64,000 bases of DNA. Origin: Roseibium marinum (GTDB taxonomy: Bacteria; Pseudomonadota; Alphaproteobacteria; Rhizobiales; Stappiaceae). The notes beneath the pieces are model-generated. The model ran no database searches. It had not been told where the DNA came from and saw only the letters and a program-made list of their open reading frames with translations. The number at the start of each line of letters is the position of its first letter. The first letter of the stretch is position 1. A program made the position numbers and the translations under genes. Below, in pieces: positions 6,223 through 42,084 of this stretch. The stretch lies in NCBI RefSeq assembly GCF_002906165.1, contig NZ_PPCN01000018.1, positions 1 to 64,000 on the forward strand, given 5' to 3'.

Positions 6223-7788
6223 TCATGCGGTTCTGCAGAAGATGGGCGACGTCCACGCCATTTGTCCGCTCGATTGCCGGAGGCGGACATAGAGATTTTC
6301 ACCGGTTTCGAAGGCGCCGAGCGGCACCGTTCCGCGCCACTGCCAATCCGCGGGACGGGGCAGCGCGTGAAAGCGCCAGGCCGGGCTGTCGATCGGGCCG
6401 AGATTTCCCGAAAGGGCCCCTTCGAGAAGTCTGGCGGCCGGCACTTCGATCCTTTGACCGCACAGGTCCGCGCGGATGACGGCCTCCGCATGGGTGTTCA
6501 TCCGCAGCGCTATTCCCTGTGTGGCGGATGTGGCGTTGTTCGGGTTGGCTTCCGCCACCACGGAGAAGGCAGCCCGCCCGTCCCGCAGTGAGGCCTGAGG
6601 CAGACGATGCGCGGTGTCGTGGCCTTCGAGCGGAGACACGACTTCCGTTCCCCGGAAGCGGGGTTCGAGGCCGAAGATTTCACCGCCGTCGATGGTGACG
6701 GTTCCTTCCCATTCGTGATGCGAGCCGCGGGCGCCCCAGCCAAGTTCGAGAAAGAGAATTGTTTCGAAGGTATCCGCATCCTGCGCGACGGGAGAAGGTG
6801 AAAGGGCAGGCGAGATTCGCTGATACAGACGCCCGTTCCGCATCACGTCGATTGTGTCGATAAATCCGCCCGCGATTGCCTCGATGTCCAGGGACACGCC
6901 GTCTGACGGTTCAATGACCGATCCCTGAATGGCGCTGCCGATCGCGGTCAGAAGGTGGATGCAGTCGCCCGTCAGAGCATTTGTCCGCCGGTCCCGCAAA
7001 CCGTCCCAGATCGCCTCCCTGGTGTTCGTGGAGGTGTTCGCGGACGCATAGACGCTCATGCGGCCGTGTCCGTAGGAGCCGGGAAAGGCGCTGTGATGGT
7101 CGGTATTGCCAACAACGCCGAAAACATGCCCCTCGGAAAGTCCCCGCTGCATGGTGGAATGCCCGTCCACCGGACCCATCGAATGCAGGTAGCTGCGGTC
7201 CGTTTCCGACGTCTCGGCGCAGCCATGCATGGAGAACATCTCGACAAAGGGCGAGAGCTCGGGATCGAAGGTGGACCAGTTGATGCCGCGCGCTCCCTGC
7301 CGGTAGCCGATATGGTGCGGAAAAGCGAGGGCGCGTCCGGGCAGGGCCGTTTCGAGCATGTCACGTAATTCGTGGGGTGTGTCGGCCAGGTGCAGCGGCT
7401 CTGTTTCCAGGTCCTTGTAGACGATGGTGTAGTCGCCATCGGCGCAGGAGTGGATTTCATAGCCGGGGAAAACCGTGAAACCCGGACGGTCCGCCGCTCT
7501 CAGGGCCTCGTAATGCGCCTCCCAGCCATTGCGCAGCCTGGCGAAGCCCTTGACGTGGAAATCGACGATATGGGCGACGGACGGATCGTCCACGGGCATG
7601 TCCGGCCAGTGCGCATGACCGGTGATTGACAGAAAATCGAGCTGAAGCGCCGCGCGGGCCAGGGCGTCTTGAAAGCGTCCATGGCCGTAGGACAGGTCGC
7701 AGTGGTTGTGGATGTCGCCATAAAGGGGCGTCACACCGAGCTTTGCGGCCAGGGGAGTCAGGCGTTCGGGCAGCTTGGTCCGGTTCAT
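6223..7788 (-). CDS. PHP-type metal-dependent hydrolase (CehA/McbA-like)
   Basis: 521 residues. The N-terminal half has a PHP-like metal site: GDIHNHCDLS near residue 25, GHAHWPDMP, FPGYEIH, FPHHIGY and GNTDHHS. These provide the ordered His/Asp ligands of polymerase-and-histidinol-phosphatase-fold enzymes. The C-terminal 200 residues look like beta-rich accessory domains. There is no signal peptide. The start overlaps the dehydrogenase stop (ATGA, 7785-7788), so it is coupled to that gene. It may hydrolyse a phosphate or ester on the imported sugar. The substrate is unknown. A DUF3604-type relative is the main alternative name. Confidence 0.7.
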   Translation of the reverse strand: MNRTKLPERLTPLAAKLGVTPLYGDIHNHCDLSYGHGRFQDALARAALQLDFLSITGHAHWPDMPVDDPSVAHIVDFHVKGFARLRNGWEAHYEALRAADRPGFTVFPGYEIHSCADGDYTIVYKDLETEPLHLADTPHELRDMLETALPGRALAFPHHIGYRQGARGINWSTFDPELSPFVEMFSMHGCAETSETDRSYLHSMGPVDGHSTMQRGLSEGHVFGVVGNTDHHSAFPGSYGHGRMSVYASANTSTNTREAIWDGLRDRRTNALTGDCIHLLTAIGSAIQGSVIEPSDGVSLDIEAIAGGFIDTIDVMRNGRLYQRISPALSPSPVAQDADTFETILFLELGWGARGSHHEWEGTVTIDGGEIFGLEPRFRGTEVVSPLEGHDTAHRLPQASLRDGRAAFSVVAEANPNNATSATQGIALRMNTHAEAVIRADLCGQRIEVPAARLLEGALSGNLGPIDSPAWRFHALPRPADWQWRGTVPLGAFETGENLYVRLRQSSGQMAWTSPIFCRTA

Positions 7789-9077
7789 AGGAACTCCATC
7801 GTCTGCGGATTGACCGCGCGGCCGTGATTGCGGAGGCTGAGATGCGCCGCGTTGACGATCCGCAGCGATGCGACACCGTCGGAAATGCCGACAGGCGGCA
7901 TTTCGCCATCGCAATAGCGGCGCATGCGGCGGACGAGCTCCAGATCCGCGCCGAAATGCGAGCTGCCGCTGTCCTCGGCGCTTGCGTCGATCACCTCGCG
8001 ATGTTCGCCATGCTGGCTCACCACATCGATGGCGCCCGAATGCCGCTCCATCCGCAGGCGGCCGTTTTCGCCGACGATCTCCAGTGTTTCCTGGTCTTCC
8101 GAATAAGGACCGAAGATCGTGAAGAACAGGCACGCCTTGATGCCGTTTTCATATTGCACCGAGATGATGGCGTGATCGTCGATATCGGAACCGGGAAGGT
8201 AGACGCAATTGTCGTTCCGGTCCTGGGGATCGCGCGCCGAGAGCCAGCTTGCATTGGGAACACGGCCAACGCCTTCAGCCTTGTCGATCAGGGTCTCGTG
8301 GCGGCGGTAGGGGCACTCCCGGTCACATTCCGCACAGCGTTCGGGCGCATTCGGATCCGGTGTGAAAATGGATGATCTTCCTCCGATCGCGTTGACGGAA
8401 ACAGGTTTGCTGCGGGCGATCCAGTTGAACACGTCGAAATGATGCGAGCCCTTGTCGTTGATGGCGCCGCCGGACAGGGAGTTGGTCCGGTGCCAGAGCT
8501 GGAGATAACGCGTATAGGGGATGACAGAGCGCAGCAGAATCATCCGGGGAGAGCCGATGGCCGGTGTCCGGGCCCTGTCGACGACCGCAATCCACGGACG
8601 CTCGTAGCGGCGCGTGAAGCCCATCATGAACGGCCTTGCCGCGTCTTTTTCGATCCGGGCGATCTCTTCCGCATCTTCAAGCGTCACGGAAATGGGCTTG
8701 TCGAGATAAACGAGTTTTCCGGCTTTTGCGGCGGCTTCCACCGGTTTCACATGCGCGTGGGTGTGCGTCGTGACGATGACAAGGTCCACGTCCGGATGCG
8801 TGACCGCCTGGTCCAGGGAGCCGGCGGCCTGAACCGTGAAGTCGATGCCGGCGGACCGGTAGACCTCATCCAGGTGCTGCACCGCCTGCTCGGTGCGATC
8901 CTGTATCCGGTCGAATACCGTGACGATCCTGAACCCGGTTTCTTCGGCTGTCTCCGCCATCCGGGTCCCGACATAATAAATGCCGCGTTCGCCCGCGCCA
9001 ATGATGGCGACGCCCTTCGCTCGGGTCTTGCCGTCTTGAGCGGCGGCTTCTTGCGCGGTATCGGCCTGGAGAGTCAT
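7785..9077 (-). CDS. Gfo/Idh/MocA-family NAD(P)-dependent oxidoreductase
   Basis: 430 residues. The N-terminal Rossmann fold begins GVAIIGAGERG, and the family motif appears as YLDKPIS (the usual EKP, here DKP), with the Lys important for catalysis. The C-terminal half is the alpha/beta substrate domain (NDKGSHHFDVFNW). An unusual Cys-rich insertion, CAECDRECPY, sits near residue 250 and could bind a metal. It is the first gene of the sugar operon after the regulator and probably oxidises a sugar or cyclitol. A 38-bp dyad lies 38 bases upstream of its start. Confidence 0.88.
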   Translation of the reverse strand: MTLQADTAQEAAAQDGKTRAKGVAIIGAGERGIYYVGTRMAETAEETGFRIVTVFDRIQDRTEQAVQHLDEVYRSAGIDFTVQAAGSLDQAVTHPDVDLVIVTTHTHAHVKPVEAAAKAGKLVYLDKPISVTLEDAEEIARIEKDAARPFMMGFTRRYERPWIAVVDRARTPAIGSPRMILLRSVIPYTRYLQLWHRTNSLSGGAINDKGSHHFDVFNWIARSKPVSVNAIGGRSSIFTPDPNAPERCAECDRECPYRRHETLIDKAEGVGRVPNASWLSARDPQDRNDNCVYLPGSDIDDHAIISVQYENGIKACLFFTIFGPYSEDQETLEIVGENGRLRMERHSGAIDVVSQHGEHREVIDASAEDSGSSHFGADLELVRRMRRYCDGEMPPVGISDGVASLRIVNAAHLSLRNHGRAVNPQTMEFL

Positions 9078-10621: not shown

Positions 10622-10795
10622 CCCGGGTGTTCCTGAATTTGATCTCGTTGTCTCGCCAGCCTAGAGGAACATGCTGTCCCGCGGAAACATTGAAAACCGG
10701 AAAAGGGCCGCTTCCCGTCGGGTGCCTGCGCTGCGCGCGCCGGTCCCGCGGAAAACGGCCCTTCCAGGGGCTTGGAGCCCGAGGTGGGTGATCCT

Positions 10796-10811
10796 GCGTT
10801 CAACTGAACGC
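10796..10811 (-). terminator. Hairpin after the peptide-binding protein gene
   Basis: GCGTTCA (10796-10802) and TGAACGC (10805-10811) form a 7-bp stem with a 2-base loop, eight bases beyond the stop of the gene ending at 10820. There is no T-run, so it may only protect the 3' end of the message. Confidence 0.3.
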
Positions 10812-10819
10812 GGGAGCCG

Positions 10820-12337
10820 CTAGTTCTTCACGGTGTCTTCCAGGAAGAACCGGCCGAGCGGGTTCTGGTAGAAGCCCTCGATATTGGCCCGCGAGACGTT
10901 GCGGTACGGGCTGTAATAGAGGTCGATCCAGTTCACGTCGTCCTTGGCGGTTTTCTGCAGCTCGACATACATTTCCTCGCGTTTGGCCGGGTCCATTTCC
11001 ACCCTTGCATCCGCGACGAGCTGCTTGACCGTGTCGTTGTTGTAGCGGGTCATGTAGTTCATGTTGGTGTCGTGGCCGAGCACGAAGGTCGTCTTCTGGT
11101 CCGGGTCGAGAATGTCGTTGGTCCAGTACATGACCGACAGGTCGTAGTCGCCCGCGACCAGCATGTCCCAGGTCTGGCTCGGATCCATCTTGATCAGGTT
11201 GACGGTGATCCCGGCCTGGGCGAGCTGCTGCTGCAGCAGGATGGCGATCTGCTCGTCGACCTCGTCGCCCGCATTGACCAGATAGTCGAGCGTCAGTCCT
11301 TCGGCGCCCGCCTCGCTCAGCATCTGCTTGGCTTTTTCCGGATCGTAGGGACGCTTGAGGTTGTCCGCGTAATGGTAGAGCGCGCCCTTGGGGACAAAGG
11401 AATAGGCGACCTCGCCGATACCGAATGTGACCGCGTCGACCACGGCCTGCTTGTCGATGGCAAGGTCGAGGGCCTGGCGGACTTCCTTCTTCGCCAGCTC
11501 GGGGCTCTCGTGGTTGATCAGCAGATGATCCTCACGGGTGGAGGGATCGAGCTCGACCTTGAGATCCGGGTTCTGCTTGAGCTGCTCGATACGGGAGAAG
11601 GGGACGAAGATGGCGGCATCCAGCTCACCAGCCTCGATCTTCAGCATGCGGGTATTGTCGTCGGGAATGGAGATCCATTCCACCCCGTCGAGCGACACCC
11701 GGTCCGCTTCCCAGAATTCCGGGTTCTTTGCAAGGATCACACGGTCGCCGCGCAGCCAGTCTTCCACCACGAACGCGCCGGAAGCGACGGGTTTTTCCGC
11801 GTAGGCTTCAGGCCCCATGCTTTCCATGCCGGCCTTGGAGATGATCGAGGCGCCGGGCATAGCAAGAGACGAGAGGAAGGGGGCGGAGGCTTCCGACAGC
11901 GTGAGAACAAGCGTCTTCGGGTCGGGTGTCTCCATCTTCGAGATCACCTTGTAGGAATCGCTCCAAAGGGACCCCTCGTCGTCGCGGATGCGCGTCAGGC
12001 TGTAGGCCGCGTCCTCGGCGGTGATCGGCGAGCCGTCGGAGAATTTCGCGTCGCGCATGGTGAATGCGTAGGTCAGTCCGTCGTCGGAGACGGTCCAGCT
12101 TTCCGCGAGACCCGGCTCCAGCTTCGTCCCCGTCTTGTCGACACGCACCAGAACGTCATAGACATTGGCGAAGACCCAGAAGTCGATATTCTGGGCGGTC
12201 ATGATCGGATCGAAGGTGGAGGAATCCTCCCGCCGTCCGATGGTCAGCACGCCCGCCGCTTCCGCGATGCTTGTGCCGAGTGTGAGCGCCGAGAGGGCGG
12301 TTGCCGCCGCCAGGCGTATTAGTTGGCGTTTTTTCAT
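10820..12337 (-). CDS. Peptide ABC transporter substrate-binding protein (family 5)
   Basis: 505 residues, the usual DppA/OppA length. The signal peptide MKKRQLIRLAAATALSALTL...AEAA ends near residue 28. Family features include DPIMTAQNIDFWVFANVYD, LAESWTVSDDGLTYAFTMRDAKFSDG and the late QLAQAGITVNLIKMD. AGGA precedes the ATG. It is the last gene of the operon hydrolase-dppB-dppC-dppD-dppF-SBP and follows the second ATPase gene by 27 bases. It captures a peptide or peptide-like ligand in the periplasm. Confidence 0.93.
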   Translation of the reverse strand: MKKRQLIRLAAATALSALTLGTSIAEAAGVLTIGRREDSSTFDPIMTAQNIDFWVFANVYDVLVRVDKTGTKLEPGLAESWTVSDDGLTYAFTMRDAKFSDGSPITAEDAAYSLTRIRDDEGSLWSDSYKVISKMETPDPKTLVLTLSEASAPFLSSLAMPGASIISKAGMESMGPEAYAEKPVASGAFVVEDWLRGDRVILAKNPEFWEADRVSLDGVEWISIPDDNTRMLKIEAGELDAAIFVPFSRIEQLKQNPDLKVELDPSTREDHLLINHESPELAKKEVRQALDLAIDKQAVVDAVTFGIGEVAYSFVPKGALYHYADNLKRPYDPEKAKQMLSEAGAEGLTLDYLVNAGDEVDEQIAILLQQQLAQAGITVNLIKMDPSQTWDMLVAGDYDLSVMYWTNDILDPDQKTTFVLGHDTNMNYMTRYNNDTVKQLVADARVEMDPAKREEMYVELQKTAKDDVNWIDLYYSPYRNVSRANIEGFYQNPLGRFFLEDTVKN

Positions 12338-12364
12338 CTGTCCTGTTCCCCTTTTATAGTCGGT

Positions 12365-13357
12365 TCAGATCCTGATCTCCCCGGGAGGGAGAATGCATGC
12401 GGCCCTGTGGGGCCCGTCACGCCCCAAACGGGGCGGTTCGCCGGTGCTGCAGTCCGGGAGGGCATTCGGGCACCGGGGATGGAAGGCGCATCCGCAGGGA
12501 AGCGCGATGGGACTGGGCGGTTCGCCGGCCAGCGGGTTTTCCGGCAGGCCGCGGTCGGGATCGATATCGGGAATGGCCCGCAGCAGCGAGGCCGTATAGG
12601 GATGGCGGGGTTCGGTGAACACCTCTTCGGTCGGTCCGGTCTCTACGATCCTGCCCAGATACATGACGGCGACGCGGTCGCAGAGACGCCGCACGATGGC
12701 GAGATCATGGGCGATGAAGATGATCGCCATGCCGATCTGCTCGCGCAGGTCCATCAGCAGATTGAGGATCTGTCCCTGGATCGATACGTCGAGCGCGGCG
12801 ACGCATTCATCCGCCACGATCAGCTTGGGTTCGACAGCAAGAGCCCGCGCGATCCCGATGCGCTGGCACTGACCGCCGGAGAGATCCAGCGGCCGTGAGT
12901 TGGCATAGCCCGCGTCGAGTCCAACCAGATTCAGGAGTTCGGCAATCCTGGAGCCGATCCGGGACGAAGGAACCTTCCTGTGAACCCGCAGCACCTCGGC
13001 GATCGCATCGCCGACACGCATGCGCGGATTGAGGGCACCGTATGGATCCTGGAAAATCATCGCGCTCTGGCGCCGCAGGCGGTTCAGGTCACCGACCGTC
13101 GCCCGCGCCATGTCCGTGCCGTCGAACACGATTTCGCCGGAGGTCAGCTCGCCGAGACGAAGGATGGCGCGGCCCAACGTGCTTTTGCCGCTGCCGGATT
13201 CGCCGACCAGCCCGAGCGTTTCTCCGGGCATGACGGCAAGCGAAACGTCGTTGACGGCCCGCAGCGGCGGTGTGCGCAGGCCCGGAATGAAGCCCGTGCC
13301 GCCGAAATGGACGTTGAGACCGGTCACTTCCAGAAGGGGGGCGGGTTTGACGTTCAT
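12365..13357 (-). CDS. Peptide ABC transporter ATP-binding protein (DppF/OppF type)
   Basis: 330 residues. It has Walker [16 protein letters not shown] and the C-terminal oligopeptide-transporter Cys pattern CAFHPRCPNALPDC. The signature is LSGGQCQRIGIARAL and Walker B is ADECVAALDVS, so Cys replaces the usual Arg/Lys and Pro. The catalytic Glu and the Asp are kept, and such changes occur in one DppF branch. The ATG at 13357 overlaps the preceding stop (ATGA). It energises import together with the DppD-type partner. Confidence 0.92.
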   Translation of the reverse strand: MNVKPAPLLEVTGLNVHFGGTGFIPGLRTPPLRAVNDVSLAVMPGETLGLVGESGSGKSTLGRAILRLGELTSGEIVFDGTDMARATVGDLNRLRRQSAMIFQDPYGALNPRMRVGDAIAEVLRVHRKVPSSRIGSRIAELLNLVGLDAGYANSRPLDLSGGQCQRIGIARALAVEPKLIVADECVAALDVSIQGQILNLLMDLREQIGMAIIFIAHDLAIVRRLCDRVAVMYLGRIVETGPTEEVFTEPRHPYTASLLRAIPDIDPDRGLPENPLAGEPPSPIALPCGCAFHPRCPNALPDCSTGEPPRLGRDGPHRAACILPPGEIRI

Positions 13358-14349
13358 GTCGCCGCCTCCGCCGGTGTGTGTGGGATTGGGTGATGACAGG
13401 CAACCTGATGACCGGGGCCGGACGTGACGAGGTCCGGGCACACGGTCGAGCACCACTCGTCGACGCGCGGACAGCGCGGATGGAACCGGCAGCCCGCCGG
13501 CATGTGCCCGATACGCGGCGGCTGGCCGTTGATGGTGCGCACCCTTTCGCCCGGATGCCCCTCGGCTGGCTGGCAGGCGACGAGACCGGCGGTGTAGGGA
13601 TGCCTTCCGCTGCCGATCACCTCCCGCTTGCCGCCAAGCTCCACGATGCGCCCGCCATACATCACCGCGACCCTGTCGCAGATCTGCGAGACGATGCCCA
13701 GATCATGGGTGATGAAGATGATGGAGACCCCGCGCGTGTCGCGCAGATCGGTCAGGAGTTTCAGGATCTGTGCCTGAACCGTGACATCGAGGGCGGTCGT
13801 CGGTTCATCCGCAATGAGGATGTCCGGGTCGCAGGCCAGGGCGACGGCGATCATGGCCCGCTGGCGCATGCCGCCGGAAAATTCGTGCGCATACGCATTA
13901 TAGCGCCGCTCCGGATCGGGAATGCCGACCTGCCGCAGGATTTCGACGGCCCGACCGCGGGCTTCCTTCCTGCTCACCGCCTTGTGGAAACGGATGCTCT
14001 CGGCGATCTGTTTGCCGATGGACATGACCGGATCGAGATGGCTGGAAGGGTTCTGGAAGATCATGCCGATCGATCCGCCGCGCACGTCCCGCATGGCGCG
14101 CTCGTCGAATGTAAAGATATCTTCGCCCTTCAGGATGGCGCTGCCGCCGGAGACCGAAAGGCGGCTGCTCTGCAGCAGCCGGATCAGGGCGCGCGAGGTC
14201 ATGCTCTTGCCCGAGCCGCTTTCTCCGACCAGGCCGAGGATTTCCCCGCGCTGCAGGTCGAAGGAGACCTGATCCACAATGGTATGGGTGGTTCCCTCGA
14301 CTTGGGCGACGACCGACAGGTCGCGGACGCTGAGGATGGGTTCGCTCAT
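13354..14349 (-). CDS. Peptide ABC transporter ATP-binding protein (DppD/OppD type)
   Basis: 331 residues starting at the Met of [13 protein letters not shown]. It has Walker [16 protein letters not shown], signature [16 protein letters not shown], Walker [13 protein letters not shown], and the C-terminal Cys pattern [14 protein letters not shown], which in some homologues binds an iron-sulphur cluster. The start overlaps the stop of the permease (ATGA, 14346-14349). A longer upstream frame exists but lies inside the permease gene. Confidence 0.92.
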
Positions 14350-15200
14350 TCGCGCACCCCCAGAAGTTCGCCCAGGCCATCGGCAAGCAGGCTGAACCCC
14401 ATGGCCAGCGTCACGATGGCGATGCCGGGGAACGTGGTGATCCACCAGGCCGAGGTAATGAAGCTCTGGCCTTCGGCGATCATGATGCCCCATTCGGCTG
14501 TCGGTGGCTGCACGCCGAGACCGAGATAGCTGATCGCAGCCCCGTTGAGCAGAACCAGCACCGCGTCCGACATGGAAAACACGACGGACCCGAGGATCGC
14601 GTTGGGCAGCAGATGGCGGAACATGATCCTGGAATGACTGTAGCCGAGACTGGTAGCCGCCAGAACGAAATCGGAGGACTTGATGACAAGGATCTGCGCC
14701 CTGACGAGACGGGCATAGGAGACCCAGCCGACCAGCGCCATGGCGACATAGAAACTGGAAAGGCCCGGCTTCAGAATGACGATGATCGCCATCATCAGAA
14801 CCAGGAACGGAAAGGCCAGGACCACATCGATGATGCGCATCAGGACCGTGTCGATCCAGCCGCCGAAATAACCGGCGCAACTGCCCAGCGTCGTTCCGAT
14901 CAGAAACGGAAAGACGACACCGAAAAGGGCGATCTGCAGGTCGATCCGCGCACCCCAGACGATGCGCGACAGGATATCCCGGCCGAAATTGTCGGTGCCG
15001 AACCAGTGAACGGAATTTGGCGGTTGCAGCCGGGCGGTCCCGTCCTGAAAGATAGGATCGTAGGGCGCAAGCAAGGGCGCCATGACGGCCAGCGCGAACC
15101 AGATCAGGAGGATCGCGCCGCCGAGATAAAGCGGCAGCGGACCGCCGCCGAAGGCAAGGCGGAACCCGGCGCGCGCGGTCTGTGTTCGCGCCAGGGTCAT
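14346..15200 (-). CDS. Peptide ABC transporter permease (DppC type)
   Basis: 284 residues. It has an N-terminal helix LYLGGAILLIWFALAVMAPL, then the DppC signature HWFGTDNFGRDILSRIVWGARI and the EAA-like loop AATSLGYSHSRIMFRHLLPN. The start at 15200 overlaps the DppB stop (ATGA). It is half of the inner-membrane channel. Confidence 0.92.
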   Translation of the reverse strand: MTLARTQTARAGFRLAFGGGPLPLYLGGAILLIWFALAVMAPLLAPYDPIFQDGTARLQPPNSVHWFGTDNFGRDILSRIVWGARIDLQIALFGVVFPFLIGTTLGSCAGYFGGWIDTVLMRIIDVVLAFPFLVLMMAIIVILKPGLSSFYVAMALVGWVSYARLVRAQILVIKSSDFVLAATSLGYSHSRIMFRHLLPNAILGSVVFSMSDAVLVLLNGAAISYLGLGVQPPTAEWGIMIAEGQSFITSAWWITTFPGIAIVTLAMGFSLLADGLGELLGVRE

Positions 15201-16135
15201 AGCTTCACCCTCGGGTCCGCGGCGACGGTCAGGATGTCCGCCAGGAAATTGACCAGCACGGTGGCCAGCGCGAAGCACATGGCGACGCCCTGGACGACCA
15301 TGTAGTCGCGGGTGAAGATGCCGCGCACCAGCAACTGGCCCATGCCGGGAATGGCGAAAACGCTTTCCAGAACCACCGTGCCGCTGATCAGCCAGCCGAT
15401 ATTGATGGCCAGCAGGTTGATTGTCGGGACGAGCGAGTTCGGCATGACGTGACGCCAGAACACCTGTCCTTCCGGAAGTCCGCGGGCGCGGGCCGCCGTC
15501 GCCTGGTCGGAATTGAGCTCGGCCAGCAGGCTGGCGCGCAGGTTGCGCGTCAGCACGGCGGACAGCGCAAGCGCCGCCGTCAGGCAGGGCAGGACCATAT
15601 GGTGCGCCTTGTCCACAAATGTGCGGCCGTACCCGCTTACCGGAAACAGGTCGAGCTGCACGCTGAAGACGATGATCAGCATGATGCCCAGCCAGAAAGC
15701 GGGAAATCCGAGCCCGGCGGTGCTCACGAGGCGGATGATATGATCGGCTGCCGAACCGCGGTTGCGGGCCGCGATGGCCGCCAGCGGAATGGCGATCAGC
15801 AGGGCGAGGCAGACCGCGCCGGTGACCAGGACCGCGGTCGGCTCGATCCGGGTGGCGATCAGTTTCAGGACGTCGACCTTGTAGAGGATCGACCGGCCCA
15901 TTTCGCCCTGGAAGAGGTTCTTGACGAAGTAGAAATACTGCATCCAGATCGGCTCGTTGAGGCCGAACTGGTCCCGGATGCGCTCGATGGCGCCGGGGGT
16001 GCTGCGCGGTCCCAGCAGCACGCGGACGGGATCTCCGGGGATCGAGCGGATGAGCACGAAAGTGATGATGCTGATGCCCACCAGGACGGGCAGCAGTTGA
16101 AACGGACGGAAAAGAACGAAGCGGTATCGGTTCAA
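15197..16135 (-). CDS. Peptide ABC transporter permease (DppB type)
   Basis: 312 residues with the DppB N-terminus (FRPFQLLPVLVGISIITFVL, then RSIPGDPVRVLLG) and the conserved TARARGLPEGQVFWRHVMPNS loop. It starts only eight bases after the stop of the proline-iminopeptidase-like hydrolase, so the peptidase gene heads the transporter operon. It is the other half of the import channel. Confidence 0.92.
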   Translation of the reverse strand: MNRYRFVLFRPFQLLPVLVGISIITFVLIRSIPGDPVRVLLGPRSTPGAIERIRDQFGLNEPIWMQYFYFVKNLFQGEMGRSILYKVDVLKLIATRIEPTAVLVTGAVCLALLIAIPLAAIAARNRGSAADHIIRLVSTAGLGFPAFWLGIMLIIVFSVQLDLFPVSGYGRTFVDKAHHMVLPCLTAALALSAVLTRNLRASLLAELNSDQATAARARGLPEGQVFWRHVMPNSLVPTINLLAINIGWLISGTVVLESVFAIPGMGQLLVRGIFTRDYMVVQGVAMCFALATVLVNFLADILTVAADPRVKL

Positions 16136-16143
16136 CGGCGGCC

Positions 16144-17031
16144 TCAGGATCGGTTTCGCTTCAGGAAGTCAAGAAGCACGGGGTAGTAGGCATCCGGTTC
16201 CTCGTAAAACGGCATGTGGCTGCTGTTGGGAAAAACGTGCAGCTCCGCATCCTTCAGCGCGAGCTTCATCTTCATGGCGCAGGCCGGGGTCAGTTCGTCG
16301 TGCTGGCCTGTGACGATCAGCACCGGCACTTCGATGCGCGGCAGGTCCGGGATCCGGTTCCAGTCCTTCAGATTGCCAATATAAAGAAACTCGTTGGGAC
16401 CCTGCATGGTTTCGTAGGGCGCCTTGTTCCAGTCGTCCACAGACCGGCTGATCGGCGCCGGCCGTGTGCTCAGGCGGCAGACGTGGCGGTAGGTAAGGAT
16501 CGTGATCGCCGCCTGGTATTCCGGGTGCTCCATCGTGCCTTCGGCTTCATGGCGCTGCATCATCGCGACGGTCTCGGAGCCGAGGGCGCAGCGCAGGCGG
16601 TTCAGTTCCTCCGCAAGATGCGGCATGTCGGCGACCGTGTCTTCCAGTATCAGCGATTTCAGCGCATCCGGATAGGTCAGCGCATAGTCGATCCCCAGCC
16701 AGCCGCCCCAGGAATGCCCCAGAAGATGAACCTTGCCGAGACCGAGCGCCAGGCGCACGGTCTCCACTTCTTCCACGTAGCGGGAGATGGTCCAAAGGGA
16801 AGTGTCATCCGGGCGGTCGGAACTCCCCGTTCCAAGCTGATCGAAGGCGACGACCCTGTAGCCTTCTCCGCCAAGGCAGGAATGGGCCTCGCGCAGATAG
16901 TCGCAGGGCAGGCCCGGACCGCCGTTCAGGCACAGGAGAACCTCGTCGCCCGCGCCGAAACTGTAGGTCTTGACCGTGTAGCCGTCCACGGTGACGTCCT
17001 GGGTCTGATCGGGCTCAAGTTCCTGCCACAT
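16144..17031 (-). CDS. Proline-iminopeptidase-like alpha/beta hydrolase (first gene of the peptide ABC operon)
   Basis: 295 residues from the Met of MWQELEPDQ. In-frame Mets at 17067 and 17112 are possible but less family-like. Features are the oxyanion stretch LCLNGGPGLPCDY (family HGGPG, here NGGPG), nucleophile elbow GHSWGGW, acid TGQHDELTP and catalytic His in NSSHMPFYEEP. Enzymes of this S33-like type remove N-terminal residues from peptides or cleave amides in the cytoplasm. It heads the dpp operon and is transcribed away from the LuxR gene, which probably controls it. It is a distant paralogue of the hydrolase at 18151. Confidence 0.88.
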   Translation of the reverse strand: MWQELEPDQTQDVTVDGYTVKTYSFGAGDEVLLCLNGGPGLPCDYLREAHSCLGGEGYRVVAFDQLGTGSSDRPDDTSLWTISRYVEEVETVRLALGLGKVHLLGHSWGGWLGIDYALTYPDALKSLILEDTVADMPHLAEELNRLRCALGSETVAMMQRHEAEGTMEHPEYQAAITILTYRHVCRLSTRPAPISRSVDDWNKAPYETMQGPNEFLYIGNLKDWNRIPDLPRIEVPVLIVTGQHDELTPACAMKMKLALKDAELHVFPNSSHMPFYEEPDAYYPVLLDFLKRNRS

Positions 17032-17262
17032 ATCCGCCGTTCCTGCCGGTTCGTTACACTTTCGCATCCGTTGAAAGGCTAGGAGTGGAGTGGCATGTCC
17101 GCTAGCTATCAATTTTAATAGAATGGCAGCCCCGTTGCCGTTTGTTCAGAAATGACTAATATGTGCTCATGAGTAAGAAAGGGGCAATATAAAAAGCCTC
17201 CGGACAACTTTTCGCAGGGTCGGGACCTGACTCGTCATTCCGCAGATAGGTGGTTTTCAGGA
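17032..17262. promoter_or_regulatory. Divergent promoter region of the peptidase-ABC operon and luxR
   Basis: 231 bases between two outward-facing genes. They include an imperfect 16-bp dyad with CTAT and ATAG ends at 17106-17121 (12 of 16 positions symmetric) and AT-rich patches. This is where the LuxR protein would be expected to bind if it regulates both sides. No exact lux box was recognised. Confidence 0.4.
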
Positions 17263-18030
17263 ATGCTGGAAACGCTGGAAGTTCTTGAGCACACGCTGGG
17301 CAAGGCGGCGTCGCTGGACGACAAGGTGGAAGCCGCCATGGTTTCCCTCAGCGCGAGCGGCTACACGTCTCTCGTCTATGACTACACGCCCGTGGTCAGG
17401 AGTTTCGAGGGGGATCTCATGACGCCGTCCCACCTCAGTCTCCGCAACGTGCCGGACGACATGCGTGCGCTGTGGTGCGATGCCGGATATTACCAGAAGG
17501 ACCCGGTGCAGCTCATGGCGATCCGCTCCACGACGCCCTTCATCTGGTCCTACCGCCAGACGCGCGACAAGACGCAGCTCGCCAACTTCATCCGGCAGGA
17601 CCACGAGCCGGTTGTGTCCTATCTGCACGACGCCGATCTGACCTGCGGCATCACGGTGCCGGTACACCGGACCCGCGGCGACATGGCGACCTTCACCGCG
17701 ATCCAGAAAGGCGCCGGCCGCCAGTTCGTCAAGGAGGCGCGCGAGCATCTGGCGGTGTTCGGCCTGCTCGGACAGGTCTTTCATGAACATGCCTATCCGC
17801 TGTTGAGCGAGGAGGAGCGGCGCACGGGCGTCATCCGGCTGACGCCGCGCGAGCGGGAATGCCTTTTGTATTCCGCCGAGGGGCTGACCGCCAAGGAAAT
17901 CGCCTACAAGATCGGCCGCTCTGTTCCCACCGTCATCCTGCACATCAACTCGGCGACAAAGAAGCTTGGCGCGCGCAACAGGCTGCACGCGGTCATGCTG
18001 GCCAGTCACTATCGGCTTCTGGACGAGTGA
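17263..18030 (+). CDS. LuxR-family regulator of the OryR/PsoR/PipR (plant-signal) type, LuxR solo
   Basis: 255 residues. An N-terminal autoinducer-binding domain (about 1-180) is followed by a GerE helix-turn-helix (LTPRERECLLYSAEG, GLTAKEIAYKIG, TVILHINSATKKLGA; about 192-250). Counting back from the conserved Asp80-Pro81 (TraR D70-P71), the residues at TraR positions 57 and 61 are Met67 and Trp71 instead of Trp and Tyr. Trp95 matches W85 and Gly129 matches G113. Trp57-to-Met and Tyr61-to-Trp are the hallmark of the LuxR subfamily that answers plant-derived compounds rather than acyl-homoserine lactones. No luxI-like gene is in the window. It is flanked by two proline-iminopeptidase-like genes and a peptide ABC operon, as known for that subfamily. 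Confidence 0.88.
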   Translation: MLETLEVLEHTLGKAASLDDKVEAAMVSLSASGYTSLVYDYTPVVRSFEGDLMTPSHLSLRNVPDDMRALWCDAGYYQKDPVQLMAIRSTTPFIWSYRQTRDKTQLANFIRQDHEPVVSYLHDADLTCGITVPVHRTRGDMATFTAIQKGAGRQFVKEAREHLAVFGLLGQVFHEHAYPLLSEEERRTGVIRLTPRERECLLYSAEGLTAKEIAYKIGRSVPTVILHINSATKKLGARNRLHAVMLASHYRLLDE

Positions 18031-18070
18031 CCGGCATATCTGACCGGCCCGGCACTTCCGACGCATTTCT

Positions 18071-18089
18071 ATAAGAATTGAGAGCTTAT
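18071..18089 (+). promoter_or_regulatory. 19-bp dyad upstream of the second peptidase gene
   Basis: ATAAG (18071-18075) and CTTAT (18085-18089) are perfect inverted arms around nine bases, giving a lux-box-sized 19-bp site 61 bases before the ATG at 18151. It lies in the 120 bases between luxR and the hydrolase. A LuxR target is plausible, but only the ends are symmetric. Confidence 0.3.
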
Positions 18090-18150
18090 CCGGCGCTTTC
18101 TCCGCGGACTAACCTGTTGGGGCTGCAAACAGGAGGTTGCAAGAGTTCGC

Positions 18151-19041
18151 ATGCTGATGATCGAGAATTACGCGCCCTTCGGAGCCTACAGGACCTGGTA
18201 TCGCATCACCGGAAATCTCGGCAGCGGGCTGACGCCGCTGATCGTGGTGCATGGCGGGCCGGGCTGTACCCACGACTATGTGGATGCCTTCGCCGACCTG
18301 GCGGAAGGCGGACGGCCCGTCATCCATTACGACCAGCTCGGCAACGGCAATTCCACGCGGCTGCCGGACAAGGGCGGCGACTTCTGGACGGTCGATCTGT
18401 TTCTTGCCGAACTGGACAATCTCATCAATCATCTGGGCATCGGCGGCGGCTACATGGTGCTGGGCCAGTCCTGGGGAGGGATGCTGTCCAGCGAACATGC
18501 GGTGCGCAAGCCGTCGGGGCTGAAGGCTCTGGTCATCGCCAACTCTCCGCCGAGCATGCGCCTTTGGGTCGAGGAGGCCAACCGGCTGCGGAAAGACCTT
18601 CCGCAAGATGTCCAGACCGTGCTCCTGACGCACGAGGTGGCAGGGACGATCGACAGCGAGGCCTACAAGGCCGCTTCGAGGGTGTTCTATGACCGTCACG
18701 TCTGCCGGGTGGTTCCCTGGCCGGCGGAGGTGGCGCGCACGTTCGAGATCATGGACGGCGATTCAACCGTCTACAAGGCTATGAACGGACCGACCGAATT
18801 CCATGTCATCGGCACCTTGAAGGACTGGTCGGTGATCGACCGGCTGGACAATATCGAAGCGCCGACGCTGCTGATTTCCGGCCGCCATGACGAGGCGACC
18901 CCGAAGGTCGTCCAGCCGTTCGCGGACAACATTCCCGATGTCCGCTGGACCATCTTCGAGGACAGCAGCCACATGCCGCATGTGGAGGAGCGCGAAGCCT
19001 GCATGAAAGTCGTCGGGACGTTCCTGGCCGAGCACGATTAG
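18151..19041 (+). CDS. Proline-iminopeptidase-like alpha/beta hydrolase (second copy)
   Basis: 296 residues. The family HGGPG motif is intact ([12 protein letters not shown]). The nucleophile elbow is GQSWGGM, the acid SGRHDEATP and the catalytic His is in [11 protein letters not shown]. Two close in-frame ATGs (18151 and 18157) follow an AGGAGG about 14 bases upstream. It is collinear with and downstream of the LuxR gene. In the OryR/XccR/PsoR group the neighbouring pip gene is the regulator's target, so the same is inferred here. It may process imported peptides or amide signals. Confidence 0.88.
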
Positions 19042-37049: not shown

Positions 37050-37997
37050 CTATATCGCCTGCAACGTGTAGACCGAAAAGAGATTGTCCTTGTCGCTGTC
37101 CTGATTAAGGACCCGCCAACCTCCCTTGTTGACGATCGAGGTGAAGGCCTCTTCGCTGTATTTGTGCGAATTCTCCGTGTGGATGGTTTCGCCTTCAGCG
37201 AAGGAGATGCTTTCGCCGCTCACCGTCACCGTCTGGCTTCTCAGACTTTCCAGATGCATCTCAATACGGCTTTCACCGGCGTTCCAGAGCGCCCGGTGGG
37301 CAAAGGCCGCAAGGTCGAAATCAGCCCCAAGCTCACGATTGATCCGCTGCAGCAGGTTCCGGTTGAATGCGGCCGTGACGCCTGCCGGATCGTCATAGGC
37401 CTTGATCAGGACCGCCTCGTCCTTCGGCCTGTCTACCCCGACGATCATGGTCGCTTCCGGCATGGCGGCGCGGATATTGCCCAGCAGGTCGGCGGCTTCG
37501 GACCGTTCGAAATTGCCGATGGTCGATCCGGGAAAGAACACCAGAACCGGAAGTTCCGGCAGCAGCGGCAGCTTTCCGAGCGGCTGTGTGAAATCCGCTG
37601 CCACAGGAATGACGGCAAGCGAGGGATAGGCGCGCCGAACCCGTTCGGCGGCGTCCTGCAGGTGATTGGCTGAGATGTCAACCGGCATATAGACCGAAAG
37701 ATCCTCGAAGGCTCCGAGCAACAGGTTGGTCTTGCGGCTCGAGCCGCTGCCGAGTTCGACCATGGCGCCACGAGCTCCGGGCAGGTGCCGGTATTTGCGG
37801 ACGTTGTCCTCAAGGATCGCCAGTTCGGTGCGGGTCGGATAATAGGCGTCCAGCTCGGTAATGGCTTCGAACAGATGCGAGCCGACATCGTCGTACAGCC
37901 ATTTGCTGCTGACGGCCTTTCGCGGCGCCTTCAGGCCAGCAAGGATCTCGGTCCTGAAGGTGGCCTGGGTCATGTTTGGGGAGACGTGTTTGGTCAT
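37050..37997 (-). CDS. egtD: L-histidine N(alpha)-methyltransferase
   Basis: 315 residues, the usual size. EgtD trimethylates histidine with S-adenosylmethionine to hercynine, the first step of ergothioneine synthesis. Family features are SKWLYDDVGSHLFEAITELDAYYPTR split over residues 25-50, MVELGSGSSRKTNLLL (SAM site), VFFPGSTIGNFER and GVDRPKDEAVLIKAYDD. It overlaps egtB by ATGA (37994-37997), so the two are made together. Confidence 0.95.
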   Translation of the reverse strand: MTKHVSPNMTQATFRTEILAGLKAPRKAVSSKWLYDDVGSHLFEAITELDAYYPTRTELAILEDNVRKYRHLPGARGAMVELGSGSSRKTNLLLGAFEDLSVYMPVDISANHLQDAAERVRRAYPSLAVIPVAADFTQPLGKLPLLPELPVLVFFPGSTIGNFERSEAADLLGNIRAAMPEATMIVGVDRPKDEAVLIKAYDDPAGVTAAFNRNLLQRINRELGADFDLAAFAHRALWNAGESRIEMHLESLRSQTVTVSGESISFAEGETIHTENSHKYSEEAFTSIVNKGGWRVLNQDSDKDNLFSVYTLQAI

Positions 37998-39259
37998 TGG
38001 TCTGCTGCCAGTCTCAGGCCGAGCATCTGCCAGCGCTGATGGGGATAGAAGAAGGTGCGGTAGGAGGCCCGCATCTGTTGTCTCGGCGTGGCGCAGGAGC
38101 CGCCGCGCAGCACCATCTGATTCACCATGAATTTGCCGTTATATTCGCCGATGGCACCCTCCGGTGGCGTGAAACCGGGGTAGGGGGAAAAGTCGCTGCT
38201 GGTCCATTGCCACACGTCGCCCCAAAGGCCGGATCTGCGGCCGACCGGCATGAATGCACCGTTTTCCAGGAAATTTCCGTCGATATCCGTCGGCTCGGCC
38301 GCCGCTTCCCATTCCGCTTCCGTCGGCAGACGGTAACCCGCCCAGCGGGCGAAGGCGTCGGCTTCATAGTAGCTGACGTGAACCACTGGGGCAGAGAGGT
38401 CGACGGGACGGGGCCCCTGCAGCGTATAGGTCCACCAGACACCATCCTGGCGCCACCAGTAGAGCGGCGAGTCCCAGCCGTTTTTCTCGCGCACCGCCCA
38501 GCCTTCCATGAGCCAGAGCGTCTGGTTTGCGTACCCGCCGTCCTCCATGAAGGCGATCCACTCGCCGTTGGTGACAGGGCGGTCGCAGAGCCGGTAAGGA
38601 TCGAGCCACACCTTGTGGCGCGGGCCTTCGCAGTCATAGGCGAAACCCTCGCCGTCATGCCCGATCTCGAGCAGGCCGCCGTCGTAACCTGTCCAGCCGG
38701 TCTCGTTCACCGCGCTGACGCTGGCGGGTTTGGGTTCGATATAGGCGGGAAGGAGCGGGTTATAGGAAAAGGCGTTGAGAAGATCGGTCACCAGCAGTTC
38801 CTGGTGCTGCATTTCATGATGACAACCAAGCGTGATCAGTGCTTCCAGCCGCTCCGGATCAAGCGCGAAGGTGTCCCGGGCCAGTCCTTCGCGCACAGCG
38901 TCCTCCACATGGGAGCGATAGCTGAGCACATCGGTGACGGTCGGCCTCGACAGCAGGCCGCGGCGGGAGCGGGTATGCCGGGGTCCGGCCTGCACGTAAT
39001 AGGAATTGAACAGCACCGCGAAACGGTCGTCCTTCGGCCGGTAACCGGGAAGCGAGGGCTTCAGGATGAATTCCTCGAAAAACCAGGTCGTGTGCGCCAG
39101 ATGCCACTTGGGAGGGCTGGCATCCTCCATCGACTGCAGGCCCATGTCTTCGTCGTTCAACGGCGCGACAAGCCCAAGCGATTGCGCCCTGACCGTTTCG
39201 AAGAGATCCGAAGCCGCGGAAACCGGTGACGGTTCCGCCCGTCCGTCCAGGTTAGTCAT
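37994..39259 (-). CDS. egtB: Ergothioneine biosynthesis sulfoxide synthase
   Basis: 421 residues from the ATG at 39259, six bases after GGAGGA. The ATG at 39265 touches that site. The N-terminal DinB-like domain carries iron ligands (WHLAHTTWFFEEF and HHEMQHQELL). The C-terminal FGE-sulfatase-like domain has PVTNGEWIAFMEDGGY, YRLPTEAEWEAAA and VLRGGSCATP. The enzyme joins hercynine to a thiol with oxygen and non-haem iron in the cytoplasm. No egtA, egtC or egtE gene is nearby, as is common in alphaproteobacteria. Confidence 0.95.
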   Translation of the reverse strand: MTNLDGRAEPSPVSAASDLFETVRAQSLGLVAPLNDEDMGLQSMEDASPPKWHLAHTTWFFEEFILKPSLPGYRPKDDRFAVLFNSYYVQAGPRHTRSRRGLLSRPTVTDVLSYRSHVEDAVREGLARDTFALDPERLEALITLGCHHEMQHQELLVTDLLNAFSYNPLLPAYIEPKPASVSAVNETGWTGYDGGLLEIGHDGEGFAYDCEGPRHKVWLDPYRLCDRPVTNGEWIAFMEDGGYANQTLWLMEGWAVREKNGWDSPLYWWRQDGVWWTYTLQGPRPVDLSAPVVHVSYYEADAFARWAGYRLPTEAEWEAAAEPTDIDGNFLENGAFMPVGRRSGLWGDVWQWTSSDFSPYPGFTPPEGAIGEYNGKFMVNQMVLRGGSCATPRQQMRASYRTFFYPHQRWQMLGLRLAADQ

Positions 39260-39814
39260 TTGCATTCCTCCACGCGGAACCCGGCAAAATGCCTCCGGCC
39301 GGTCCTGTGACTGCCACCAGGCGGTTTGAAGGTAGGAGGGCTTCAGGGTTTTCCAATGTCGAAATTTGCAACTGGCCGGTGCACGAATGCGCGGCCGGGA
39401 CGCCTGTTTCCGGGTTGTTGAGAAAATAAAACAATGTTTTGAATAGTCCCATCATCGCCTCTTAAGCAAAGAAAAGTCCACAAAACCTTGGTTTCAGGTG
39501 TTATTTTGAACTTTTCAAACGCGGGAAAGTTCCCGATCGATGGCTGGGAAAATAGAAAACCAATCCTGACAGGGTGTGTCAGGATTGATTGCAGCGCCTC
39601 TTCACATTGGCGTGAGATTTCCGCTGACCGAACTTCGCGCACCGAAAGCGCGTTGTTGGAAACGCGCCGCCATCACGTTGGTTCAAGACAGATTGGCTTG
39701 CCCTTCGCCGGGCATGGTTGCCATGCAGCCCTCTTTGATGTCACAGCTTGGAACAGAAAGAACAGGTGACGCAGAGCTGCGCCCGACCGTGTCAGCTCAA
39801 TTCAGGGAGGTTCC
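39260..39814. other. Divergent intergenic region egtB/dapA with a perfect dyad
   Basis: 555 bases. It holds the outward promoters and, at 39562-39586, a perfect inverted repeat (AATCCTGACA, GGGTG, TGTCAGGATT). As both neighbouring genes point away, this is unlikely to be a terminator. No gene with a good start site was recognised on either strand. Confidence 0.55.
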
Positions 39815-41865: not shown

Positions 41866-42084
41866 AAATTTTATTTAACCGTCTCTGTTTTGCCGAAATC
41901 GGATAGCTGGCGTCGGGCAATGACTCTAGTGTGCGCGCAAAGAACTTGGACGAGGGAACGCAGAGTCCCTCACGCTAGCCTGAGGAAAAAATTCTTGTCG
42001 TCCGAAAAAGCTGTGCCGCCTCAGGCCCGAAACTTGAATGACGCCAACCGTTTCTTGCAGCCAGGGGACAGCACCGCAAGACCA

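Follow-up and report, generated by a model that had tools for sequence, protein, structure and literature searches.

A probable sense-import-degrade module around a PipR/OryR-type LuxR solo in Roseibium marinum

LuxR solos of the subfamily named after plant-associated bacteria (PAB) have been described beside peptidase and transporter genes. As reported in mBio in 2016 (PMC4981722), pipR of strain GM79 lies between two peptidase genes, aapA and pipA; aapA heads the aapA-F operon, coding for a peptidase, two membrane proteins, two ATPases and a binding protein, and pipA stands behind pipR. An inverted repeat lies upstream of pipA at -71.5 and mutating two of its bases abolished activation, the importer is needed for the response and the peptidases damp it (PMC4981722). 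Here we describe a locus of this kind in a 64,000-nucleotide stretch of Roseibium marinum (contig NZ_PPCN01000018.1; "the window"), from a genome of 6.06 Mb labelled G000 in our comparisons. Positions 10820-19041 very probably hold a complete PipR/OryR-type module for sensing, importing and degrading a small molecule. The parts themselves, their co-conservation, two predicted operators and the absence of a luxI match are observed here; that import would be required, that LuxR would be the receptor and that the peptidases would give negative feedback is argued by analogy with the GM79 genetics. Running outward from luxR on the minus strand are peptidase 1, permeases B and C, ATPases D and F of the ATP-binding cassette (ABC) type and a solute-binding protein (SBP), whereas luxR lies divergently on the plus strand with peptidase 2 at its 3' side. 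The features, in window numbering, with domains assigned by Pfam and NCBIfam profile searches and operators ranked by a position weight matrix (PWM), are:

10820..12337, minus strand: periplasmic SBP of the AapF type, 505 amino acids (Pfam SBP_bac_5; best solved match AapF)
12365..13456, minus strand: OppF/DppF-type ABC ATPase F (profile searches; the listed GTG start is probably too long)
13354..14355, minus strand: OppD/DppD-type ABC ATPase D (profile searches; start approximate)
14346..15278, minus strand: inner-membrane permease C (profile searches; the listed start may be too long)
15197..16135, minus strand: inner-membrane permease B (profile searches)
16144..17031, minus strand: peptidase 1, proline-iminopeptidase-family hydrolase, AapA-like by position, head of the operon (TIGR01250)
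17103..17124, no strand: predicted operator 1, TAGCTATCAATTTTAATAGAAT, in the divergent region between peptidase 1 and luxR (PWM rank 1 of 63,979, 22.2 bits)
17263..18030, plus strand: LuxR solo of the PipR/OryR (PAB) subfamily, 255 amino acids (domains; residues M67/W71)
18066..18087, no strand: predicted operator 2, TTTCTATAAGAATTGAGAGCTT, centred 74.5 bp before the peptidase-2 ATG (PWM rank 2 of 63,979, 15.6 bits)
18151..19041, plus strand: peptidase 2, proline-iminopeptidase-family hydrolase, PipA-like by position (TIGR01250)

All eight genes that the sequence-only reading had claimed for this locus were recovered in the claimed order and positions, with profile matches to SBP_bac_5, two ABC ATPases with oligo_HPY tails, two BPD_transp_1 permeases, one Autoind_bind plus GerE protein and two TIGR01250 hydrolases. 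The open reading frames of ATPases D and F were over-long in the program-made list. In addition, the most likely start of peptidase 1 is the ATG at 17031, since a frame opening at the TTG at 17112 would run into the conserved operator and since a homologue (L097) begins at the equivalent methionine.

The closest described counterpart is the PipR/AapA-F/PipA system of GM79, which shares the order aapA-F, pipR, pipA, the two peptidases and the AapF-type SBP; judged by gene order, the layout is the type arrangement already known from that strain. The sequence-only reading had taken the two diverged peptidases for a local twist; both are indeed present, but pipR of GM79 is also flanked by two, so that part of the claim falls away. 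The GM79 inverted repeat at -71.5 compares with operator 2 at -74.5, and GM79 PipR keeps W57 (PMC4981722) whereas the window has M57, as in Xanthomonas and Ensifer. NesR of Sinorhizobium/Ensifer meliloti has the same layout of pip and transporter genes, nesR and pip according to a 2023 review, and its group carries W57M/Y61W in a 2015 survey, as does the window protein, a likeness by description. OryR and XccR of Xanthomonas likewise combine the PAB residues with an adjacent pip gene, but an APC-superfamily transporter gene is reported upstream of the oryR-type gene (PMC4981722), unlike the ABC importer found here; a peptide transporter is listed for OryR/XccR in the table of the 2023 review. 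PsrR of Kosakonia KO348 shows the order ABC importer, psrR, pip as in the window, although the figure legend names one pip gene rather than two, and the pip box proposed there differs from the window footprint in sequence and position (PMC7301841).

The window LuxR matches PF03472 (Autoind_bind, 77.2 bits) and PF00196 (LuxR HTH, 48.6 bits), and its closest named protein, 94% identical, is from Roseibium sp. AS2. With TraR positions assigned by the spacing of conserved residues, M67 and W71 correspond to W57M and Y61W, and the equivalents of D70, P71, W85 and G113 are kept (MW-DP-W-G over the six positions). Among 84 rows, made up of the window, 80 related loci and three further loci (L103 and L004 being the same locus twice), the TraR-61 position is W in all 84 and the TraR-57 position is M in 54 and W in 30; these 30 are the 30 Pseudomonas rows, in agreement with the remark on GM79 PipR in the mBio 2016 paper (PMC4981722). 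The domains and the four conserved residues would also suit a canonical solo sensing N-acyl-homoserine lactones (AHLs) that stands beside a peptide operon by happenstance, but W57M and Y61W are hallmarks of the non-AHL PAB solos, a peptidase adjoins luxR throughout the 80 loci, and in the other Autoind_bind protein of the genome W/Y of the AHL type can be read by eye. We therefore regard this explanation as highly improbable and reject an AHL receptor on W57M/Y61W and the gene context. That other protein (L001, contig C11, 1432-2214) keeps W/Y/D/P residues of the AHL type, again read by eye, and could be an AHL-listening solo, as no luxI was found in the genome. The window LuxR looks like a true solo, since PF00765 (luxI) has no match in its genome while the same search was positive in 6 of 45 genus genomes. 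At E<=1e-40 the receptor was also found on 150 of 72,556 plasmid records, 121 of which are from Rhizobium.

The sequence-only reading proposed that the flanking genes would be conserved together with this luxR, and the comparison of gene order bears this out. An alignment scan of genome contigs with LuxR gave at least 334 relatives, and the 80 loci are the best 80 of them; most come from Rhizobium-type genomes and Pseudomonas (30 rows), and they are not independent cases. Within this set the window LuxR is 46-53% identical to the Pseudomonas rows, and 46-50% identical to Rhizobium-named relatives among the matches listed. A peptidase lies beside luxR in 80/80 loci and an AapF-type SBP (>=60% identity) is present in 74/80. 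One peptidase of each type was found in 63 loci, peptidase 2 only in nine, peptidase 1 only in four, two of the peptidase-1 type without peptidase 2 in three, and two plus peptidase 2 in one. The six loci without an AapF-type SBP are L003, L034, L054, L059, L069 and L072. In L003 the SBP is missing because of a contig end, and the sequence also stops 362 bases 3' of luxR, which makes the missing peptidase 2 there uninformative. As for L054 (Pseudomonas sp. ANT_H4), it has luxR, both peptidases and both operators but no SBP match, and one ATPase is seen only as a cross-hit and is apparently missing.

SBP_bac_5 importers are abundant, and this raises the question of whether common families merely lie together by chance; the genome itself gave 25 first-look SBP candidates, of which 17 were scored. 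However, only the window SBP passed E<=1e-120. Furthermore, among 87 family genomes G000 and G055 are the two with luxR (E<=1e-20), and they are also the two with the AapF-type SBP (E<=1e-120); since G000 has both by construction, the probability of such a coincidence is about 1 in 86. The neighbours outside the block are not conserved either: Gfo, GntR-like, MFS1 and GMC genes were found in 0/80 loci and MFS2 in one, weakly (27% over half its length), and the DNA alignment with G055 (19.4 kb) shows homology at 10822-19015 with differing flanks and no further aligned block of more than 150 bases at E<=1e-15. Chance adjacency is contradicted by the 80-locus comparison and the G055 block, and we give it practically no weight. 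In 385 class genomes, with the best 6 (luxR) and 3 (SBP) candidates per genome scored, luxR (E<=1e-40) was found in 3 and the SBP (E<=1e-140) in 8, namely those 3 and 5 without this luxR. A conserved extra gene beyond the core was considered and rejected, the 25 largest flank clusters of the 80 loci and the window being mostly Pseudomonas chromosomal synteny; one of these clusters, of ABC ATPases, is spread over 20 loci.

An operator appears to be shared across species by the peptidase-2 promoters of related LuxR loci. The motif CTA-N10-TAG lies upstream of peptidase 2 in 67/74 promoters, against about 1.9/74 expected after letter shuffling. The seven others are the window, L004, L010, L026, L028, L045 and L061; for the last two, the site fell outside the stretch first examined and was found by PWM at 28.3 bits, and L010, L026 and L028 carry near matches of 19.8 bits. 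The PWM was built from 26 distinct sites scoring 17.9-29.7 bits, all from peptidase-2 promoters of other species and none from the window, and it puts 17103-17124 and 18066-18087 above the remaining 63,977 window positions, which gives one predicted operator at each promoter flanking luxR. First-order Markov windows of 64 kb (n=200) averaged 0.005 matches each at or above 15.5 bits and never reached 22.2 bits. At the two promoters of the sister locus in G055 the scores are 22.8 and 20.9 bits. Additionally, a site of at least 12 bits lies within 250 bases upstream of luxR in 79/80 loci (L003 reaches 11.8 and L019 only 12.2), and a downstream site occurs in 72/73 loci with peptidase 2 and in 1/7 without (Fisher p 1.6e-7, overstated since the loci are related). 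The exception among the latter is L070, where a strong operator (22.4 bits) lies near 10770, 3' of luxR, though no peptidase 2 was found.

Both peptidases score far above the TIGR01250 cut-off of 167.65 (272 bits for the longer frame of peptidase 1, 273.3 bits for peptidase 2), and the best solved match of peptidase 2 is 7a6g (481 bits). In an alignment to 1mt3, which we take to be the tricorn-interacting factor F1, the serine nucleophile motif and the catalytic Asp and His are kept in both by eye, and so are the glutamates aligned to E213 and E245 of factor F1, which presumably hold the amino end of the substrate. A second paralogue of the peptidase-1 type, 54-57% identical, lies between permease B and peptidase 1 in L004/L103, L008, L019, L050 and L102, and L004/L103 and L102 have three peptidases each.

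For the importer, the best solved match of the window SBP is AapF (7kz8/7kz9; 753 bits, 1.1e-225), the next solved protein reaching 176 bits. In an alignment to 5f1q the segment around the Asp of DppA is kept, and a gap stands where DppA has the loop that bears its Arg; we assume that this Asp binds the amine and the loop Arg the carboxylate, and take this as a hint only. The structure 7kz9 is described in a figure legend of the AlphaFold 3 paper as AapF of Pseudomonas sp. PDC86 bound to HEHEAA, that is, N-(2-hydroxyethyl)-2-(2-hydroxyethylamino)acetamide (PMC7301841). As the amide of an N-substituted glycine, HEHEAA has a secondary amine of the kind that iminopeptidases accept, and by our own reasoning it would thus be a plausible substrate of the peptidases as well as a plausible ligand.

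Taken as a whole, the co-conservation, the AapF match and the same predicted operator at both flanking promoters support the sense-import-process logic proposed by the sequence-only reading. The AapF-like SBP and the B/C/D/F importer would take in a small exogenous molecule, probably amide-like or short-peptide-like with a free amine, which would bind the LuxR solo inside the cell. Ligand-bound LuxR could then activate from two copies of one operator, with operator 2 driving peptidase 2 and operator 1 driving the peptidase-1/importer operon and possibly luxR, and both aminopeptidases would cleave the ligand or a derivative and reset the switch.

Several points weigh against such a module, or against parts of it. 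Operator 2 is the weaker part: at 15.6 bits it scores below any training site (lowest 17.9), it is one base off the CTA-N10-TAG core, and one of the 200 simulated windows reached 16.3 bits. L004 has peptidase 2 but its downstream site scores just 6.3 bits. The importer and peptidase 1 also occur without this regulator, in the five loci L096-L100; the stretches examined there, two of which stop at a contig end or close to one, gave no match to LuxR at E<=1e-5. It is also probable that the organism is no classical plant associate; Roseibium is a mainly marine genus. Lastly, the ligand may not be HEHEAA: according to the 2023 review, HEHEAA is not bound by a close homologue of the transporter protein, and the Kosakonia study reports no pip induction through PsrR by HEHEAA, ethanolamine or rice root macerate (PMC7301841).

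The locus could also serve mainly nutrition, LuxR being a local regulator of an operon for amide or peptide uptake and breakdown and signalling being substrate induction only. This overlaps with the module rather than excluding it, and we consider it a serious possibility, though less likely than not. In its favour, the luxR-less L096-L100 keep peptidase 1 and the AapF-type importer genes, with an APH kinase and/or a carbon-nitrogen hydrolase upstream in 4/5 (an APH-family kinase gene just upstream in L096, L097 and L098, carbon-nitrogen hydrolases in L096 and L098 and another in L099). Furthermore, a strict pattern covering both window operators matches twice in the 6.06-Mb genome, both times in this locus, so that no wider regulon is seen. 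However, this pattern was built from the two window sites and would miss weaker distant ones; it shows only the absence of other close copies, and the backwards control pattern matched once. The 2023 review also links plant colonisation to the PAB solos of both pathogenic and beneficial bacteria.

Returning to the sense-import-degrade module, its variants bear on how the parts came together. In L034, L059, L069 and L072 an unrelated peptide-type ABC importer (SBP 24-25% identical; that of L034 best matches 8upi, 181 bits) is found and peptidase 1 is absent, while luxR, peptidase 2 and both operators (15.1-29.1 bits) are kept. These four loci form one supported clade (97/91) of the LuxR tree, Mesorhizobium/Parvibaculaceae, which points to the importer having been exchanged in a single swap. 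An isochorismatase-family hydrolase lies near the module in L034 (3255-3947), L048 (11771-12454) and L078 (11873-12556), from Parvibaculaceae and Pleomorphomonas; the L048 and L078 proteins share 72-74% identity with the one in L034. In the LuxR tree, which is midpoint-rooted and has L019 on a long branch, the window and G055 form a pair that falls outside the clades of Pseudomonas, Rhizobium and Mesorhizobium. Among the luxR-less operons, L096, L097 and L098 belong to genomes G349, G426 and G123, the SBP of L096 has an identical counterpart in Dongia rigui, and none of the five has an operator site above 8.9 bits in the stretches examined. The Roseovarius locus L019, which lacks peptidase 2, has an APH gene (10780-11745) directly 3' of luxR, 46% identical to the APH of the luxR-less Dongia operons.

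The right flank of the window, from MFS1 onward, is found in four other of the 45 genus genomes, all without a match to this luxR. One of them, G068, still carries a degraded 3' stub of peptidase 2 next to the same MFS gene (L113, 14079-14206). This stub aligns at 72.5% identity across 131 positions and scores 65.3 bits, whereas 200 shuffles reached at most 29.2 bits. Because this piece remains beside the right flank, we conclude from the alignment that peptidase 2 once stood at this site in the G068 lineage and has since been lost, as probably has the whole module. A simple gain in the window lineage alone is weakened by this stub. Recent foreign origin judged by GC content was also set aside, since the module has 62.6% and the window 61.4% and composition is uninformative.

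Elsewhere in the window, a Methyltransf_33 gene adjoins an FGE-sulfatase/DinB gene at 37050-39265, a pair that we take to be typical of EgtD/EgtB-type thiol-histidine synthesis. A 1006-amino-acid protein with an autotransporter beta-domain is encoded at 41890-44910, and a 570-amino-acid stretch inside an open reading frame at 6223-7935, beside a sugar-type ABC operon, has no Pfam match at E<=0.001.

A broader view, which we put forward tentatively and think rather unlikely, is that the plant-signal label is too narrow and that the module is a general sense-import-degrade circuit for amine-headed amides cleavable by iminopeptidases, such as ethanolamine conjugates or capped dipeptides. On this broader view an older import-and-cleave operon, like that of the luxR-less Dongia, would have been joined by LuxR, the operator and a second peptidase, the importer would be exchangeable provided that receptor, operator and peptidase 2 are retained, and non-plant lineages such as Roseibium would act on algal or other marine amides. 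Occurrence outside the classical plant hosts is no novelty in itself, because the 2015 survey and the 2023 review list members from Rhodobacter, Citreicella, Shinella and Aureimonas; among the papers searched, none dealt with LuxR solos of Roseibium, with LuxR and an iminopeptidase in Labrenzia, or with marine OryR and PipR. By homology and gene context, the locus thus belongs, with good support, to a known system, in a host that has been little described. The cross-species operator offers a handle for finding wired modules and for predicting promoters for reporters. Which part sets ligand choice becomes a question because of the reported failure of a close homologue of the transporter protein to bind HEHEAA, and the importer-swap clade and the luxR-less operons could serve as natural experiments on it. 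Lastly, a circuit studied in plant endophytes and pathogens now appears in an apparently marine genus, which would provide a test of the plant specificity of its ligand.

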